DNA of 22,682 bases, from IMG/VR virus record IMGVR_UViG_3300009605_000161, positions 1-22,682 of that record; one strand, given 5' to 3'. Shown in pieces: positions 5,052 through 19,516 of this stretch. The notes under the pieces are model-generated. The model saw nothing but the letters and a program-made list of their open reading frames with translations. It did not search any database and was not told where the DNA came from. Numbering within the stretch: position 1 is the stretch's first letter; every line of letters starts with the position of its first letter. The position numbers and the translations under genes are program-made. This DNA is from a virus.

Positions 5052-6974
5052 ATGAATTACATTAGTGACATCCTGCCCGAAGAATTTCTTCTGCCATATA
5101 AGACGAAGAAACCAAATTGGGGATACAACGGACTTGGTGAAATTGTATACAAGCGAACATATTCTCGCTTGAAGGAGGATGGCACAAATGAAGAATGGTG
5201 GGAAACTATCGCAAGGTGTATTAATGGCGCACAACATATTGGTGCCGACTATACAAAAAAAGAAGCACAACAATTATTCGAATATATGTTTGAACTCAAA
5301 TGCAATTTTGCAGGCAGAATGCTTTGGCAATTGGGCACTTCAACAGTCGATAGGTTTGGTGGGAATTCTCTTCTGAATTGTTGGGGTGTTTGCATTCGTG
5401 ATATTGATGATTTCTGTTTCATCTTTGAGAACTTAATGCTTGGTGGTGGGGTAGGATTCTCTATTCGAAAAGAAGACATCCACGAACTCCCCCGTGTTAA
5501 AGAAGGCGTTTCTGTTAAACACAAAAAGAGAAACGATGCAGATTTTATTGTTCCTGATTCCCGCGAGGGGTGGGTAAAACTTCTCAAGAAAATTCTTAAA
5601 TCTTATTTCTATACTGGCCAATCTTTTACCTATTCTACTTTACTTGTTCGTTCATCGGGAGAACGCATCAAGGGATTTGGCGGGAAAGCATCTGGGCCTG
5701 GGATTCTTATTGATGGTATTGAAAATATTTGTGAAGTAATTCAAGAACGAGAAGGCAAAAAGTTACGGTCCATTGATGTTTTAGACATTTGTAATATTAT
5801 TGGGTCTGTCGTTGTTGCAGGTAATGTTCGTAGGTCTGCTGAAATTGCAGTTGGTGATCCTGATGATTATCTATTCCTTCGTGCAAAACGATGGGACTTA
5901 GGAAACATTCCCAACTGGCGTTCTATGTCAAACAATACAATCTATGCAGATTCTTACGATCATATCAGCGATGCAGTATGGAAAGGATATGATGGTTCTG
6001 GAGAGCCATATGGTTTCTTTAATCTTCCCCTCGCACAAAAGTATGGAAGGCTAAAGGACAAGAAAAAAGACAGATGTGAAATTGTAAATCCCTGTGCAGA
6101 AATTCTTCTGGAATCTTATGAGTGTTGTAACCTTTCAGAAATCTATTTGAATAATATTACCTCTAAGGCGGAACTTAAAGATTGTGCAAGGTTGCTCTAT
6201 AAAACACAAAAGGCTATTTGTGCATTGCCATTTATTCATCCACAAACCGAAGATGTTGTTCACGATAATATGAGAATTGGTGTAGGAATTACAGGCATTT
6301 GTCAATCTCTCGACAAATTAGATTGGTTGGATGATTGTTACGAAAACCTTCGGGAGTATGATGAGAAATGGTCAGAGAAAAAAGGATATCCTGTAAGCAT
6401 TCGATTAACCACAGTAAAACCATCTGGAACGCTTTCTCTCCTTTCTGGAAGTACGCCTGGTGTTCATCCTGCATATGCTAATTATTTTATTCGAAGAGTT
6501 AGAATGTCTAGCAGTGACGATCTTGTTAATATGTGTAGAGAATCCAATTATCCAGTAGAGTATGCAAAAAGATTTGATGGAACAGAAGACCGCAGTACGG
6601 TTGTTATAGAGTTCCCTTGCCATATCAACGGAAAGACCATTCTTGCAAAAGATATGACGGCGGTAAAACAATTAGAACTTGTAAAGAAATTACAAACAGA
6701 TTGGTCGGACAATTCTGTTTCTGTAACTGTCTACTATCGCCTTGAAGAACTCGATGAAATTAAAGAGTGGATGGCAAAGAATTATGAGAAATCATTAAAG
6801 ACAGTAAGTTTTCTACTACACAACGAACACGGATTTGAGCAAGCGCCATATGAAGAAATTACTAAAGAAGAATATGAAAAAAGAGTTTCTAAAATAAAGC
6901 CAATGGAGAATATAGAAACGGGTGAGGTTTTGACCGAATTAGAGTGTGTTGGCGGTTCTTGTCCCATCCGATAA
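5052..6974 (+). CDS. nrdJ: Adenosylcobalamin-dependent (class II) ribonucleotide reductase
   Basis: Reduces ribonucleotides to deoxyribonucleotides with a B12-generated thiyl radical, oxygen-independently. The 640-residue chain resembles the monomeric triphosphate reductase type. Seen are SLLNCWGVC with C110, NPCAEI with radical-site C348 and E350, CNLSE with C359, the loop TVKPSGTLSLLSGSTPGVHP, and a C-terminal pair C632/C637 (CVGGSCPIR) spaced as in the Lactobacillus leichmannii enzyme. All cysteines needed for catalysis and re-reduction are present. It is about 100 residues shorter than that enzyme (739 aa). It follows thyX, so dNTP supply genes sit together. The host must provide or import cobalamin. 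Confidence 0.92.
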   Translation: MNYISDILPEEFLLPYKTKKPNWGYNGLGEIVYKRTYSRLKEDGTNEEWWETIARCINGAQHIGADYTKKEAQQLFEYMFELKCNFAGRMLWQLGTSTVDRFGGNSLLNCWGVCIRDIDDFCFIFENLMLGGGVGFSIRKEDIHELPRVKEGVSVKHKKRNDADFIVPDSREGWVKLLKKILKSYFYTGQSFTYSTLLVRSSGERIKGFGGKASGPGILIDGIENICEVIQEREGKKLRSIDVLDICNIIGSVVVAGNVRRSAEIAVGDPDDYLFLRAKRWDLGNIPNWRSMSNNTIYADSYDHISDAVWKGYDGSGEPYGFFNLPLAQKYGRLKDKKKDRCEIVNPCAEILLESYECCNLSEIYLNNITSKAELKDCARLLYKTQKAICALPFIHPQTEDVVHDNMRIGVGITGICQSLDKLDWLDDCYENLREYDEKWSEKKGYPVSIRLTTVKPSGTLSLLSGSTPGVHPAYANYFIRRVRMSSSDDLVNMCRESNYPVEYAKRFDGTEDRSTVVIEFPCHINGKTILAKDMTAVKQLELVKKLQTDWSDNSVSVTVYYRLEELDEIKEWMAKNYEKSLKTVSFLLHNEHGFEQAPYEEITKEEYEKRVSKIKPMENIETGEVLTELECVGGSCPIR

Positions 6975-7017
6975 AATTTAAATTTTTTATTGACACCTGC
7001 GTTTAATATAGTATAAT
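6971..7017 (+). promoter_or_regulatory. Strong host-type sigma70 promoter with AT-rich upstream element
   Basis: Perfect -35 TTGACA at 6990-6995 and perfect -10 TATAAT at 7012-7017 with a 16-base spacer. Directly upstream lies an A/T tract (6971-6989, containing the palindrome AAAATTTAAATTTT at 6973-6986) that looks like an UP element. Transcription should begin near 7024 and read through the leader into the microprotein and porin genes. Because it matches host sigma70 consensus, it should work early without phage factors. Confidence 0.82.
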
Positions 7018-7035
7018 AAGAGGTTAATAGAAATA

Positions 7036-7115
7036 GGTATGTCTACATAATTGACATATCTTAACGAAGTCAAGTTGACTTCACGGTACAATCTGTACCA
7101 CTCTCTAGCCAGAGA
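7036..7115 (+). promoter_or_regulatory. Structured 5' leader with four consecutive hairpins
   Basis: Between promoter and first gene lie four adjacent inverted repeats. They are 7036-7043 with 7053-7060 (8 bp, one G-U, 9-nt loop); the 17-base palindrome 7066-7082 (6-8 bp); 7085-7090 with 7094-7099 (6 bp, 3-nt loop); and 7102-7106 with 7111-7115 (5 bp). The AAGGAG of the next gene (7131-7136) is left unpaired downstream. No riboswitch class is recognised; mRNA stabilisation or protein binding is possible. Confidence 0.6.
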
Positions 7116-7144
7116 TAACTAATTCAATACAAGGAGAAAAAGTT

Positions 7145-7330
7145 ATGGCTAACAAAGAATGCCCTTGGGGCGGATGTGATGATGTAGTTTCCAATACCCT
7201 GTGTAAAATCGGTGTAACCCGATCTTGCCTATGGACCTTGGCACTACTTCCCTTTGCTTGGGAAGGTGTTGTATGGGTCGGTGGCGCACTTGAGTCCCTT
7301 TGGGGTTTGGTAACTAACGCCGTCGGCTGA
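7145..7330 (+). CDS. 61-residue membrane microprotein, first gene of porin cassette
   Basis: Small hydrophobic protein with an excellent ribosome binding site (AAGGAG 7131-7136). The N-terminal 28 residues contain four cysteines (C6, C11, C20, C28) and no classical signal peptide. Residues about 29-57 are a tryptophan- and glycine-rich hydrophobic stretch (WTLALLPFAWEGVVWVGGAL) long enough for one membrane segment or a helical hairpin. It is made from the strong promoter at 6990 and precedes the porin by 68 bases. It could be a membrane modulator, an insertion helper or a superinfection factor; there is no family evidence. Confidence 0.7.
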   Translation: MANKECPWGGCDDVVSNTLCKIGVTRSCLWTLALLPFAWEGVVWVGGALESLWGLVTNAVG

Positions 7331-7347
7331 TTTCGAAAGTGTTGTAC

Positions 7348-7374
7348 ACGGGAAGGTTAATTTAATCTTCCTGT
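7348..7374 (+). promoter_or_regulatory. Intercistronic hairpin between microprotein and porin
   Basis: A 12-bp stem (two G-U pairs) with a 3-base loop: arms 7348-7359 and 7363-7374. It is followed by CTTTAC, not a U-tract, so full termination is unlikely. It could act as a partial terminator, RNase barrier or processing site that sets the microprotein:porin ratio. The porin's own ribosome binding site (AAGGAG) lies downstream and is unpaired. Confidence 0.55.
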
Positions 7375-7398
7375 CTTTACATATTAAGGAGAAACAAT

Positions 7399-8550
7399 AT
7401 GAGTAAGAAAAAGTGGACAATTTATGGTGCTATTGCCGCAGCCGTTCTGGTTGCTGCAATTGCGACACCCGTACTTGCAGATGAGCCTTCATATGAAGAC
7501 CTCACCGCTCGTTTGGATGCCGCAGAAGCACGAATTGCAGAATTGAACAAGTCTGAACCATCAGAGATGGATATCGCCAGAGCAAATGCCACTAAGGCAC
7601 TTGTTCGTGATGTTCTTGCTGATGCAGATGCTCGTTCAATGATGCAAGGCAACGGAAGCCCTGTTACAGTAAATGTACACGGATTTGTACAATCTCGCTA
7701 CACCTATAGTGGTGGTGGTGATGACGAAGCCAATCACGGTTTCGGTCTTCCCCGCGCCCATCTTGAACTTTCTGGAGACCTCTATAATTGGGGTTATGTA
7801 GTAAGTGGACAGTGGAGCGAAGGAGGAGAGTTTGACCTTTTGGATGCTTATGCAGAAGGTGGACTCTTTGGTGGAAATGTCCGTGTAGGACAATTCAAAG
7901 CACCGTTTATGCGTGAGGTACTTGTCTATCAGGCAGATACTCTTATGACAGAGCGTTCAATCGTGTCCAACCAGTTTGGTCAGGGTCGTTCGCAAGGTGT
8001 TCAGTATAGTCGTGATTTTGGTGTGGTAGATTTTGCTGCCGCTTACACCGATGGTTTCGATACTGCCAATGGCGCAGGAGTTCAGAACGGTCAGGCATTT
8101 ACTGCCCGTGCTGGATTCGATGTTGCTGATTGGTGGAATGTGGGTGCTGCCGTTTCATATAACGATTTGGTAGACACCGACTACACCACCTACACCCTTG
8201 ATACTAATGTATCATTCGGTGGAGGTCTTGACTTGACTGCTGCCTATGTTGCAACTAGCGGTGACGCTGGAGACAATTGGGGAACAACAGTTCAAGCAGG
8301 GTATCATTGCATGGATAACCTACAAGGTTTCGTTGCATATGAGTATGGTGAATTAGAAGATGTTTCAGAGAATCTTAGCATTGCAACTGTTGGTGCCAAT
8401 TATTGGTTCAACGATAATGTCAAGTGGACAACCGAATTAGGTTATGCACTAAATGGCATTAATGGTGCTTGGGATTTGGGAGAAACAGGTTGGCGTGCTG
8501 GTGACAGTGGCGAATATGTTATTCGTACCCAACTTCAACTTACTTTCTGA
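7399..8550 (+). CDS. Outer-membrane beta-barrel porin (phosphate-selective porin O/P-like)
   Basis: Predicted secreted 383-residue porin. Residues 1-27 are a clear signal peptide (basic MSKKK, hydrophobic core, cleavage after VLA). A short coiled coil follows (DLTARLDAAEARIAELNKSE), as in trimeric porins with N-terminal coils. From about residue 90 the chain is alternating amphipathic strands starting VNVHGFVQSRYTYSGG, rich in aromatic, Gly and Asp residues. It ends in QLQLTF, with the terminal Phe expected for BAM-directed outer-membrane proteins. The pattern resembles the OprP/OprO family, but substrate cannot be read. It sits in a cassette with its own sigma70-type promoter and terminator, unlike the phage genes around it, which suggests a moron-like acquisition from a bacterium. 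Confidence 0.85.
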   Translation: MSKKKWTIYGAIAAAVLVAAIATPVLADEPSYEDLTARLDAAEARIAELNKSEPSEMDIARANATKALVRDVLADADARSMMQGNGSPVTVNVHGFVQSRYTYSGGGDDEANHGFGLPRAHLELSGDLYNWGYVVSGQWSEGGEFDLLDAYAEGGLFGGNVRVGQFKAPFMREVLVYQADTLMTERSIVSNQFGQGRSQGVQYSRDFGVVDFAAAYTDGFDTANGAGVQNGQAFTARAGFDVADWWNVGAAVSYNDLVDTDYTTYTLDTNVSFGGGLDLTAAYVATSGDAGDNWGTTVQAGYHCMDNLQGFVAYEYGELEDVSENLSIATVGANYWFNDNVKWTTELGYALNGINGAWDLGETGWRAGDSGEYVIRTQLQLTF

Positions 8551-8584
8551 TTTTATGGGAATACCCTTCCCGCCGTCAGGCAGA

Positions 8585-8618
8585 CAGCCCCTCGACTCAG
8601 GTCGGGGGGTTGTTTTTT
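8585..8618 (+). terminator. Strong intrinsic terminator after porin
   Basis: A 12-bp GC-rich stem (8585-8596 with 8601-8612, including G-U pairs), a TCAG tetraloop at 8597-8600, and six T at 8613-8618. It lies 34 bases after the porin stop and closes the cassette begun at the promoter near 6990. Confidence 0.9.
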
Positions 8619-11456: not shown

Positions 11457-12224
11457 ATGGTACTTAGGAGAACTGCATATTTCTTAGCAACTTTGTTATG
11501 TTTAGTAAGTTGCACTTCAACTCTACCTTTACCTACACCTCCCCAACAACAAAACCCAATACCAGAAGTCTTTGATCCTTTTGTTGCCACAAACAATGAA
11601 AACGATCCCTATCCTTTCGTTGGTTCTATTCATAGAGAAAATGGAAGTTTAGTAGGCGGCGGAGTTCTTATTGCACCCGATGTAGTTCTAACTGCTGGAC
11701 ATTGTATCGATAATAAAAAAATAGACTCAGTATATTTTGGAGAAATGTGTGTTCCTGTTTCCTCTACTCTTCTTCATCCTGAATATGAAATGTATGGAAG
11801 ACCTGTAAATGATATCGGCATTATTTTTCTAGAATATCCAGTAGATATTAACCCCATTTCCCTACATAATAATAGAGTATTGTGGAGATTCAGTGATATA
11901 ACAGTTATCGGATATTCGTTCGGATATAAAAAATACAGCAAGCCAAGTGTATTTCAATATTACGGAACAATACTTGAAGACATAAACGAAATAAAGTTTC
12001 TACCAAGACGGGCAACAATCTGGTTTGGTGATTCTGGCGGCGCAGTAATTGCTACACTAGAAGGAGAAGAAAGGTTAGTAGGAATAATAACATCATTCTT
12101 GACAGATGAATTTGGAATAGTCGAGTGTTCGGCTACACGAATTAAATTTTATAGAGGGTGGATTGAGGAGGTTCTAAATGAACAAGGATTGGACGGACGG
12201 GGTAGCCGAATGGGTGAACAATAA
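11457..12224 (+). CDS. Trypsin-like serine protease, predicted lipoprotein
   Basis: A 255-residue S1-family protease with a full catalytic triad: H82 in TAGHC, D119 in NDIGIIFL, and S193 in GDSGGAV. The N-terminus MVLRRTAYFLATLLCLVSCT is a lipoprotein signal with lipobox LVSC (lipidated Cys19), followed by a Pro/Gln-rich linker (LPLPTPPQQQNP). The mature enzyme should therefore be anchored in the host envelope, facing the periplasm or surface. The barrel spans about 50-235. A late promoter box lies just upstream, so it is probably made late. Possible roles are cutting host envelope proteins before lysis or blocking receptors; phage origin of such an enzyme is unusual. Confidence 0.88.
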   Translation: MVLRRTAYFLATLLCLVSCTSTLPLPTPPQQQNPIPEVFDPFVATNNENDPYPFVGSIHRENGSLVGGGVLIAPDVVLTAGHCIDNKKIDSVYFGEMCVPVSSTLLHPEYEMYGRPVNDIGIIFLEYPVDINPISLHNNRVLWRFSDITVIGYSFGYKKYSKPSVFQYYGTILEDINEIKFLPRRATIWFGDSGGAVIATLEGEERLVGIITSFLTDEFGIVECSATRIKFYRGWIEEVLNEQGLDGRGSRMGEQ

Positions 12225-16169: not shown

Positions 16170-18233
16170 TTATATTTCTAACAATTCAAAGCCAAAATTG
16201 ACATCTATTGATTCCAACTGTCGTTGGGGTTTCCTTTGTTCTGATAAAGTAAATGTCTTATTCACATTCACGCTATAATTAAGTGTTTCTAAAAATCTCT
16301 TACCTATAAGAACCAAGTATGTGTTGTCATCTCGGTCGCTTAAGTTAAAGAGAACATCTTTGTATTCTTTCTTGCCAAACTTTATATCAAATTTGACTAG
16401 ATATCGTTCTTCCCATTGGTCTGAACCGATATTAATTTTTTGAGTTTGTACGATTGGTTTAGTAAACTTCTTTCCAAGAATACTAAAGGACACATTCTTG
16501 CCCTTTGCTTTTACATTATCTGAATGAATAGAATTTACTGAACCATTCCCTGTATCTACTTTGGCTTTTAATTTACCAACACCCTTGACTGTGATGTATT
16601 CTACATAACCAATTTCCTTGGAAGTAAATTTCCAATTCTCTTTGTTAAGAATATGGTCGAGAACATAACCAACCAACTCTTCGCCGCTAAGTTCTTTTCC
16701 TTCGTGGCCTGGATGATATCCCATATACGGTGCGGCGCCAGAACCTGGCGAACCATTCACCTCTAGAATATAATGTTTTCCGTTGTGTGTGATATGGTCA
16801 ACACCTGCATAGTAACAACCAGATATCTTATATGCTTTTCTAATAAGGTCTTTTTCTTCTTGGCTCAACTTGTAGGGAGCAGTGTCATTACCCAATGCTT
16901 TATTGGTTCTAAATTCTTTCCCACCAGAAGATTTGATTCTTTTTACTGAAGCACAAATCTTACCATCTAGGACAAGGGTACGGACATCGTGTTTAATCTC
17001 CATATATTCCTGAAGGATAATCTCTGCTTCGTGCTTCCACAAGGACTGTAGAACGGATTTAAGGGACTCATAGGACTCAATTTTCGAAACTCCGATACCT
17101 TCAGCACCTGTAATCGTTTTTATGATAACAGGGAACTTGCCCCCGATCTTTTCAAGAGCAATGTCAATCGAATCTTCGTTATTCACAAAGGCTGTTCGTG
17201 GAGATGAAATTTGATTTTGTTCAAGTGCAAGTGCAGTAACCATTTTGTTCTGGCAAAATTGCATAGACTCAAGACTGTTTACCATAAACATTCCAACTTC
17301 CTGTAGCGTTTTTACCATACCCGTACCAGCATTATCAAGAATAGCCCCGCCGCGAACCAACGCAACGGTGTTGTCTATTTTTAGATTAATATTCTTTCCG
17401 TCGCCGCCATAATTATGAATAGTAATTTCGTTATCTTCCATATCCTTGTCTACAATAAATGCGTGGTCAGTATGCACGGCAAAGAAAGATACACCTTTCT
17501 TTTTACATACTTTTGCCAATCTTTCAATGGTATCAGACTTCTCATTATCTGTAGAAGATTTGGTAATAGCAATAACCGTTGGAAGGCTTTTGTCTTTTGC
17601 TTCCTCTAAACTAATCAGTCTATTCCAATCTTCTTCTAGTGATTCTCGCACACCCATTGCAGTTCTCAATTTTTTGTATAGTTGTTTTGCAATTATTTTG
17701 TTTCCTACGCCCAATTCAAAACTTTCATAGTCTCCCGCAACTGCGGCCGCTCTCATCTTTGAAGCAGACATTCCTTCGACTCCTTCTGCATCGGGGTCTC
17801 TCTGTCCTGCACTTCTTACTTCAAAGTGGTCAAATTGATATCCATCTGGTCCAACATATTTTGAAATACTTTTTTCTAATTCTGCTACTCTATCACCACC
17901 AACGACAAGAATAACTTTTTTATATCCTTCATCACTTAATTTCTGCATCATATAAAACGGATTTATTACAGACCTATCGTCTATAACATTTACTTTCCTG
18001 CCAAATATCTTTCTCATAAAACTAATTTTGTCTCTGGGCTTTAAAGGGTCTCTATTGTCGCCTGCCTTTCGACTTGGGTAAATACGATGCTCTGCTCTTT
18101 CCCTTCGGGCATTGTCAACCACCGCATCAACTAGTTTTTGATGACCAATTGTAGGTGGTTGAAAGCGCCCGAAGGTTACAACGATAGCCTTCGTTTTGTC
18201 TTCGTTCAGAAAATCTCTGACCGATTTACTCAT
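16170..18233 (-). CDS. Triple fusion: nucleotidyltransferase + RimK-like ATP-grasp ligase + RimB-like aspartic protease
   Basis: A 687-residue enzyme in three parts. (1) About 15-195: HIGH-superfamily nucleotidyltransferase, with VVTFGRFQPPTIGH (TIGH 28-31) and GMSASKMRA (164-172). (2) About 215-530: RimK-type ATP-grasp amino-acid ligase, with nucleotide loop IIKTITGAEGIGV (K372), LQEYMEIKHDVRTLV, YYAGVDHI and metal residues in ILEVNGSPG (E491, N493). (3) About 545-675: RimB/DUF785-like retropepsin fold, with KAKVDTG (D560) and LIGKRFLE. RimK adds glutamates to a protein C-terminus (ribosomal S6 in E. coli) and RimB acts with it; here both sit in one chain. The N-terminus MSKSVRDFLNEDK resembles a T4 capsid-targeting peptide. 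ATGA overlap with the upstream small gene. Substrates unknown. Confidence 0.87.
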   Translation of the reverse strand: MSKSVRDFLNEDKTKAIVVTFGRFQPPTIGHQKLVDAVVDNARRERAEHRIYPSRKAGDNRDPLKPRDKISFMRKIFGRKVNVIDDRSVINPFYMMQKLSDEGYKKVILVVGGDRVAELEKSISKYVGPDGYQFDHFEVRSAGQRDPDAEGVEGMSASKMRAAAVAGDYESFELGVGNKIIAKQLYKKLRTAMGVRESLEEDWNRLISLEEAKDKSLPTVIAITKSSTDNEKSDTIERLAKVCKKKGVSFFAVHTDHAFIVDKDMEDNEITIHNYGGDGKNINLKIDNTVALVRGGAILDNAGTGMVKTLQEVGMFMVNSLESMQFCQNKMVTALALEQNQISSPRTAFVNNEDSIDIALEKIGGKFPVIIKTITGAEGIGVSKIESYESLKSVLQSLWKHEAEIILQEYMEIKHDVRTLVLDGKICASVKRIKSSGGKEFRTNKALGNDTAPYKLSQEEKDLIRKAYKISGCYYAGVDHITHNGKHYILEVNGSPGSGAAPYMGYHPGHEGKELSGEELVGYVLDHILNKENWKFTSKEIGYVEYITVKGVGKLKAKVDTGNGSVNSIHSDNVKAKGKNVSFSILGKKFTKPIVQTQKINIGSDQWEERYLVKFDIKFGKKEYKDVLFNLSDRDDNTYLVLIGKRFLETLNYSVNVNKTFTLSEQRKPQRQLESIDVNFGFELLEI

Positions 18234-18361: not shown

Positions 18362-19516
18362 TTAAACTGTTTTTAATTGCTGTAACCTTTTCTCTGGTAT
18401 ATTTAGACCAGATATTATGGTATACAACCTTAAACTATCTTTTCCATCCTCATAAATACCCCGATGCAGAGTTGCATTTGGACATAACGAAGATAGCGTA
18501 TCGAATCCATACGATAAACTATCCATTAATCCTGGCGTATTTTCCATAATATCCTTACCGCCAATTGCCACACAGGCGGCAACACTAGAGTCTGAAAGTT
18601 CTACATCAGTAAGAAGTGTCTTTTCAAGATTTGTCTTGATTGCACTTGATACCTTTTGTTCGTCATCAAACTCTTTTAATTTCGCTACACCCATAACCAT
18701 TACGCCACCACACCGCAAGACGCTGGAATAGTCTGTTGGGTCAAATGATGTATATGGTGATGGGTTGTTTGTGAGTACATTGAATACATGGAATAGACCA
18801 GAGATGGTATTATTAACTGTTGGCCAGAATTGTTTAACCGTTAATCCTTTATACATTCTTTCAATCTTGGAATTGTCAAGAATGATAAGAGGAGAAATGG
18901 TTTTTTCTTTTGCACATCCACCAACAACGCTCAACACTTCATGTGCATTTTTTGACACTACTGGTGAATTTGCTTCGCCTCTGGTTGGCAAAGACATAAC
19001 TACTCCAACTCGTTTTTCTGGATCGTCGTGCCCAATATACTTCATATATTTCTTGGCAGTTTCAATTAAAACGAGGACTGAACCACTTCCGCTGCCACCA
19101 CCAGCACCGACACAGACAAAAAGATGATCGACATTACTACCATAGACTCTTCGCATAAGATCGAATACATTTTGTTTATATTTGTTTGCCGCTTCATTGC
19201 CTTTATCCATATCCTTTCCTGCACCCTGTTCACCCACATCAAATAACATTTTTTGTTCGGCAGGCAATTCAAGAGTATCTAAATCGTGACGAGAAGTATT
19301 TACTGCAATACATTTTTTATATCCTCGTTCATAAAATGCTTTTGCAATTCTGCCACCACCTTGCCCAGAACCAATCCAAGCGAAGGTTTGAGAACCACCA
19401 GATTCGTCTTCTACCGCAGTTTCTTCATCTTCTGGAATTTCATAATCTTCCAAATCAATGTCTGGTATTTCTAAATCTGGAATTTCTGGAATTTGATTTT
19501 CTAATTCTTCGCTCAT
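18362..19516 (-). CDS. FtsZ/tubulin-superfamily GTPase
   Basis: A 384-residue filament-forming GTPase candidate. Residues 1-42 are an acidic tail of repeated EIPD-like units (EIPDLEIPDIDLEDYEIPED). The GTPase begins at about 45 (FAWIGSGQGGGRIAKAF). The tubulin signature is GAGGGSGSGS at 137-146. The T7 loop that completes the neighbour's active site reads FDPTD at 258-262 with both aspartates (D259, D262), so hydrolysis should work. Jumbo phages use the tubulin PhuZ to position DNA and capsids; this protein is not obviously that family and looks at least as close to FtsZ. AAGGA precedes the start. It lies between the ligase-like gene and the triple fusion. Confidence 0.85.
   Translation of the reverse strand: MSEELENQIPEIPDLEIPDIDLEDYEIPEDEETAVEDESGGSQTFAWIGSGQGGGRIAKAFYERGYKKCIAVNTSRHDLDTLELPAEQKMLFDVGEQGAGKDMDKGNEAANKYKQNVFDLMRRVYGSNVDHLFVCVGAGGGSGSGSVLVLIETAKKYMKYIGHDDPEKRVGVVMSLPTRGEANSPVVSKNAHEVLSVVGGCAKEKTISPLIILDNSKIERMYKGLTVKQFWPTVNNTISGLFHVFNVLTNNPSPYTSFDPTDYSSVLRCGGVMVMGVAKLKEFDDEQKVSSAIKTNLEKTLLTDVELSDSSVAACVAIGGKDIMENTPGLMDSLSYGFDTLSSLCPNATLHRGIYEDGKDSLRLYTIISGLNIPEKRLQQLKTV

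Follow-up and report, generated by a model that had tools for sequence, protein, structure and literature searches.

The window, i.e., the whole stretch of DNA analyzed here, is the virus record IMGVR_UViG_3300009605_000161 with a length of 22,682 bases. Between positions 6975 and 8618 it carries a transcription unit that combines the genes for a microprotein and a porin, preceded by the rightward genes uvsX, dnaB, primase, thyX and nrdJ, the latter encoding a class II ribonucleotide reductase. The initial annotation had proposed a moron-like porin cassette with its own promoter and terminator, consisting of AT tract, promoter, leader, microprotein, hairpin, porin and terminator. Each of these elements was recovered in the window (Table 1) and the cassette is conserved as a whole and occupies two genomic sites. 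Judged from sequence, the unit has the promoter and terminator of its own that characterize a phage moron, and it is a real, conserved, moron-like operon.

Table 1. Elements of the porin transcription unit in the window (ORF, open reading frame; SD, Shine-Dalgarno sequence; CM, covariance model; AF2, AlphaFold2)
Feature	Position	Strand	Basis
AT-rich (UP-like) tract	6975..6989	+	read from sequence
Sigma70-type promoter, TTGACA-N16-TATAAT	6990..7017	+	score 12/12; sequence only
Structured 5' leader RNA, 121 nt, four hairpins	7024..7144	+	folding, covariation, CM match
Microprotein, 61 aa, single hydrophobic segment, Cys-rich N-terminus	7145..7330	+	ORF; SD AAGGAG at 7131-7136
Intergenic hairpin, 9-bp stem, in microprotein-porin gap	7351..7371 (about)	+	read from sequence
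Porin, 383 aa	7399..8550	+	ORF, AF2 model, fold matches, Planctomycetota relatives
Intrinsic terminator 3' of porin	8585..8618	+	hairpin 8585-8612, then TTTTTT to 8618

Conservation and mobility of the porin unit

A scan of IMG/VR with the porin alignment confirmed 89 viral relatives, of which 80 loci were kept; these include contig 3300009418_002501, which is near-identical to the window. The promoter of the window, with its -35 box at 6990-6995, a 16-nt spacer and the -10 box at 7012-7017, is the sole 12/12 site on both strands of the 22.7-kb sequence. Promoter-like sites as such are not in excess between 6000 and 9500 (8 seen, 7.4 expected), so that the case for the promoter rests on its perfect score and its conservation. 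In the 300 nt that precede the microprotein gene, a 12/12 site is present in 36 of 75 loci and an 11/12 site in 18 more, and the resulting 54 loci compare with 1.3% of 2168 control windows (0.23% at 12/12, 1.06% at 11/12), bearing in mind that these counts are not independent because the loci are related. The 22 nt before the -35 box have a mean A+T content of 81% among 51 distinct leaders, vs. 61% in the same loci. A terminator follows the porin gene in 61 of 73 loci with stem sequences that vary. The hairpin between the two genes, on the other hand, is present in the window, as described initially, but is not conserved: among 74 loci, no more than 10 have a hairpin here of -17 kcal/mol or lower, the limit for a strong one, and it was therefore rejected as a general feature of the unit. 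No terminator was seen in the window between the nrdJ stop codon (6972-6974) and the promoter, and read-through from nrdJ into the unit is therefore possible. An inverted repeat around the -10 box was also considered but lacks significance across the loci as a whole (an equally high value in 52 of 1000 permutations); in locus L060, a near-perfect inverted repeat (TTGACACCCCAC / GTGGGGTGTCAA) flanks the -10 box upstream of the microprotein gene.

The structured leader noted initially now emerges as a covarying RNA element with four hairpins. In the window it folds with a minimum free energy of -30.8 kcal/mol (z -4.07), and none of 200 shuffled sequences was equally stable. The four-hairpin structure was drawn by hand, and its pairs were then scored in 21 main-type leaders, aligned with MAFFT and picked from the 51 distinct ones, the remainder being shorter or of different types. 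In this main-type set 93.6% of the cells in the hairpins are paired, with two-sided changes at 11 of 21 pairs; none of 500 shuffles attained any of five measures of the structure, and sliding the pairing partners reduced pairing to 48.7% or less. Hairpin 1 occurs in two registers, with 80% pairing in the counted one. In a mixed alignment of 30 leaders, RNAalifold detected none of the hairpins but hairpin 3. Covariance model R1 matches the window at 7035-7131 with 70.7 bits and finds 25 of 40 sources at E values up to 1, 24 of them at E <0.001. Every match is located directly upstream of a microprotein gene, including that of locus L144 which has no porin, and among 18 whole records the element is present as a single copy in 12 and lacking in six. 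Neither the window nor four relatives yielded an Rfam match to the leader at the gathering score, a permissive scan likewise returned nothing over the leader, and the model had no match in 298 Planctomycetota genomes. Two further candidates were discarded: a start-site hairpin enclosing the Shine-Dalgarno sequence is not above chance (mean stem 5.14 vs. 4.96 in shuffles), and the GGA of a CsrA-type loop in hairpin 2 is lacking from the loop of the window itself.

Upstream sequence of 700 nt or more is available for 71 loci; nrdJ is located within 1 kb upstream of the unit in 62 of these and not in the other nine. The nrdJ genes are of two types, with 25 loci featuring the type found in the window and 37 a type that is only about 30% identical. 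In the window (5052-6974) and its relatives, the place before the cassette is thereby shared by two highly divergent types of nrdJ (about 85% vs. about 30% identity). A gene for a gp32-like single-stranded DNA-binding protein (SSB) precedes the same unit in loci L051, L053 and L063, where the leader model scores 45-106 bits; in L053 the unit adjoins tail genes on the opposite strand. L051 and L053 group with L052 in the tree and L063 with L060, and because the SSB-site loci fall in two tree places, the unit or the porin has moved more than once. As is characteristic of morons, the unit lies between otherwise unrelated phage genes and varies in site or presence, with two sites occupied and the porin absent from 16 of 77 microprotein loci. 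The porins of L111 and L112 are nearly identical and their microproteins more different, a mismatch that is taken as a sign of recombination. The cassette may have moved as one unit among two or more sites that mark the ends of rightward gene clusters for DNA metabolism.

Members of the microprotein family comprise 57-69 residues and, as judged by BLAST, neighbor the porin in 75 of 80 loci. Of the remaining five loci, four have their start no more than about 110 nt from the end of a contig, and the fifth, L102, has a diverged microprotein just downstream of the porin; in L106 the order of the two genes is reversed. The family shares the invariant positions G, P, G, W and W, one predicted hydrophobic segment and a Cys-rich N-terminus. 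Ratios of nonsynonymous to synonymous substitution rates (dN/dS) range from 0 to 0.26, indicating purifying selection on the microprotein as well, and the gene occurs once per record in 26 of 26 records. A scan with the microprotein confirmed 168 viral contigs, of which 80 were kept and 77 examined. The porin is located downstream of the microprotein in 51 of these loci, overlaps the search boundary in one, lies upstream in nine and is lacking in 16; the initial description thus needs the correction that the microprotein also occurs without a porin, in phages of other types, some of which carry it near lysozyme-like or lipoprotein-like genes. Without a porin, it stands beside a lipoprotein-like gene in L187 (2998-3162) and L156 (2956-3168) and adjoins a Cpn10-like gene in L149 (2974-3195), where a Destabilase-type lysozyme gene is nearby. 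No match was found among 50,697 records of known phages, and only one of 392 Planctomycetota genomes gave a match, which is marginal and contains internal stops. In terms of distribution, the microprotein is a phage gene in its own right and a near-constant companion of the porin.

A lysis or envelope-damage module, in which porin and microprotein would aid late envelope disruption, is conceivable in view of the lysozyme-like (Destabilase/SLT) gene near the L149 microprotein and the small membrane protein and lipoprotein-like gene near that of L187. PHROG lysis matches among the neighbors of porin-less microproteins are, however, weak or absent, the neighbors of the unit in the window are DNA metabolism genes and the promoter is of the sigma70 type without the T4-late TATAAATA, all of which renders such a role improbable.

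Origin and pore of the phage porin

The porin is composed of a signal-peptide-like N-terminus, helices at residues 32-81 and a 16-strand barrel at 89-382 with an L3-like loop at 168-196. The AF2 model, which is of moderate confidence (predicted local distance difference test score, pLDDT, 71.7), comprises the 16 strands and the helical N-terminus, and its L3 loop is directed inward. A C-terminal Phe is present in 48 of 49 phage porin rows, that of the window included. Structural comparison returned OprP/OprO first and other 16-strand porins next (Z 26-23). For L023, a relative from Planctomycetota, the model clearly resembles OprP (Z 31.0 vs. 24.9 for the next family). The OprP-like look mentioned in the initial annotation is right at the fold level and clearest in this relative. 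At the sequence level, the window porin matched no PHROG, no Pfam family above cut-off and none of the 50,697 phage records; PF07396 (Porin_O_P) matches two of 14 phage porin relatives (best 3.7e-9) and not the window porin. Each of 24 longer records encodes one porin.

Among 84,980 species, a scan seeded by two conserved motifs, which would consequently miss relatives lacking these, returned 24 porin relatives. Nineteen carry titles that name Planctomycetota taxa, four are untitled bacteria and one is a partial match from Myxococcaceae. In the class of genome G026, 28 of 298 genomes contain a porin match at E 1e-30 or better. An N-terminal helical motif, LVxxVLxDAxxR, precedes the barrel, and its strict form is shared by 32 of the 49 phage rows and 13 of the 19 bacterial ones; together with the range of the relatives, in which the lone Myxococcaceae match is partial, it characterizes the phage protein as a Planctomycetota-type porin. 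In a tree with 19 planctomycete rows, from which the distant L046 and 14 near-identical rows had been dropped, the 49 phage porin rows form one clade with full support, and they again form one clade against 42 bacterial rows. The porin phylogeny, which had been proposed as a check on the initial annotation, links the protein to cellular porins, those of Planctomycetota, rather than to phage structural proteins. On this phylogenetic and structural evidence, the phage porin derives from a Planctomycetota-type porin of the OprP fold.

The pore constriction has been retained in the phage proteins. Loop L3 with its flanks measures 35 residues in 48 of 48 phage rows and 35 or fewer in 41 of 42 bacterial rows, and the residues R186, R197, R237, D149 and D268 are, just as the length of L3, strictly kept in phage porins. 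R197 is present in 49 of 49 phage rows vs. four of 19 bacterial rows, among them L023 and L024, two near relatives with L3 sequences that resemble the one of the phages. Outside the constriction, every phage row has a shorter loop L5 than any of the 42 bacterial rows (medians 9 vs. 17), in a comparison in which some truncated bacterial rows give zero lengths. Loops L1, L2, L6 and L7 also tend to be shorter in phage porins and so is the periplasmic turn T4. Since the longest phage loop equals or exceeds the loop of 18, 9 and 10 of the 42 bacterial rows for L2, L1 and L4, respectively, only L5 fully separates phage from bacterial porins.

The porin has been retained over a divergence down to 44% identity, and its dN/dS of 0.10-0.28 in 11 pairs indicates purifying selection. 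Conserved constriction and purifying selection favor a working channel. The same selection and wide retention, together with the conserved RNA structure, speak against the unit being a selfish or neutral hitchhiker, i.e., an ordinary moron with no role in lytic infection, a view for which the signals of its own, the two sites and the persistence of leader and microprotein without a porin in L144 could be cited but which we regard as having little likelihood.

Proposed function and probable hosts

The phage of the window is T4-like by its T4-type replication genes. The closest counterparts of its DnaB-type helicase are found in T4-like marine phages (61% for Methylophilales phage Melnitz), and relatives carry gp32, baseplate hub and tail tube genes. 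The hosts are probably Planctomycetota, and probably Phycisphaerae. The main pointer is the kinship of the porin; a second, weak one is that both the porin phage L096 and L144 carry a dockerin-like repeat resembling a family that occurs in four of four planctomycete and none of 14 control genomes, although L144 scores below the family cut-off. No direct host link was found for the porin phages.

With a probability of about 0.5, we propose that the unit is a self-contained cassette of T4-related phages that provides Planctomycetota hosts with a Planctomycetota-type porin sustaining solute influx. Host RNA polymerase would transcribe the unit early from the sigma70-type promoter, the leader RNA would control or stabilize the mRNA, and the porin would enter the host outer membrane and keep up or raise the influx of small solutes, perhaps anions, for phage DNA synthesis. 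With its loops trimmed, the channel may in addition serve competing phages less readily as a receptor. Several observations weigh against this proposal. The phage porin model is nearly tied between OprP (Z 26.0) and general porins (25.1), and the net charge of the barrel is negative (-18 in phage and -15 in bacterial porins), which is uninformative on a preference for anions or phosphate. The microprotein cannot merely be a helper of the porin because the latter is absent from 16 of its 77 loci. Finally, a search for the DnaB protein of the window in the 298 genomes of the G026 class, which had no positive control, gave no matches, such that no binned phage supports a planctomycete host.

External porin loops are the usual receptor sites of phages. 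Their shortening around a retained pore, the early-type promoter and the presence of the small predicted membrane protein in unrelated phages that lack the porin would suit superinfection exclusion, with the phage porin replacing or diluting receptor porins and the microprotein blocking entry of competing DNA at the inner membrane. A decoy would, however, not need the strictly kept L3 length and constriction residues, and the nearest cellular porin has an almost identical L3 sequence; we therefore consider exclusion as the purpose of the unit rather unlikely. A combination of both functions can be suggested tentatively, in which a 'stealth porin' operon of Planctomycetota phages, with the host-derived pore kept, the receptor loops pared and the channel made early, alongside the microprotein, under a phage-specific structured leader, would feed the phage and deter its rivals. 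The unchanged constriction loop vs. the trimmed outer loops offers a testable handle for distinguishing uptake from receptor avoidance.

Relation to known phage porins

Phage porins are already known in print (PMC8115048) and from databases, and what is unusual here is the pairing with a microprotein, the RNA leader, the breadth of occurrence and the probable hosts. In a literature search on phage-encoded porins and Planctomycetota phages, that source was the only one found with a porin as viral auxiliary metabolic gene. It describes ompL beside glnK-amtB in viruses from oxygen-minimum zones, with promoter and terminator predicted around the glnK-amtB neighborhood, and reads the porin as an aid in nutrient uptake (PMC8115048). 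That case resembles ours in a porin gene on uncultured phage contigs with a nutrient-uptake reading, but is of Flavobacteriales type and located beside an ammonium transporter, whereas the porin described here is of Planctomycetota type, has a microprotein partner and a conserved leader RNA and occurs in dozens of related phages. The norB-nirK 'moron' of a T4-like marine virus is likewise an autonomous unit of host-derived genes with promoter and terminator, yet encodes metabolic enzymes, stems from a single contig and, in the text available, has no RNA leader (PMC8115048). In the accessible part of a report on a chronic phage of a deep-sea planctomycete, the word 'porin' does not occur (PMC10945688).

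The phosphate and pyrophosphate porins OprP/OprO (Porin_O_P, PF07396) share the 16-strand fold and the long L3 with the phage porins and are the best structural match, whereas the phage proteins have short external loops and the N-terminal helical stretch common to planctomycete porins. A similar barrel is predicted for BFVD entry A0A8S5S2G8 of Siphoviridae sp. ctBLh2, named 'Phosphate-selective porin O and P' (E 8.8e-19, TMq 0.63), but this protein has 612 residues, is 18% identical and belongs to another phage type. The Lc porin of lambdoid phage PA-2, or NmpC, is also an outer membrane porin carried as a moron, in that case by a temperate enterobacterial phage and from the general porin family; we know of no leader RNA or microprotein partner for it. 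Phages of Planctomycetota are little known. A gene tied to this phylum serves as a marker of a large, uncultured clade of T4-related phages and hints at the hosts of this clade. The analysis also adds a new RNA leader with covariation and a family of microproteins, both open to testing; if the proposed function is true, outer membrane permeability would be a recurrent target of marine phages.

The window encodes further proteins of interest. A trypsin-like serine protease with a lipobox-like N-terminus is located at 11457-12224 on the plus strand. It is conserved: among 46 loci with sufficient sequence, 32 have such a protease in the 4 kb that follow the porin. On the minus strand, positions 16170-18233 encode a fusion protein that unites a RimK-like ATP-grasp with cytidylyltransferase-like and zinc-protease-like domains, and positions 18362-19516 a tubulin/FtsZ-family GTPase with a TubZ-like C-terminal domain, here in a T4-related phage.

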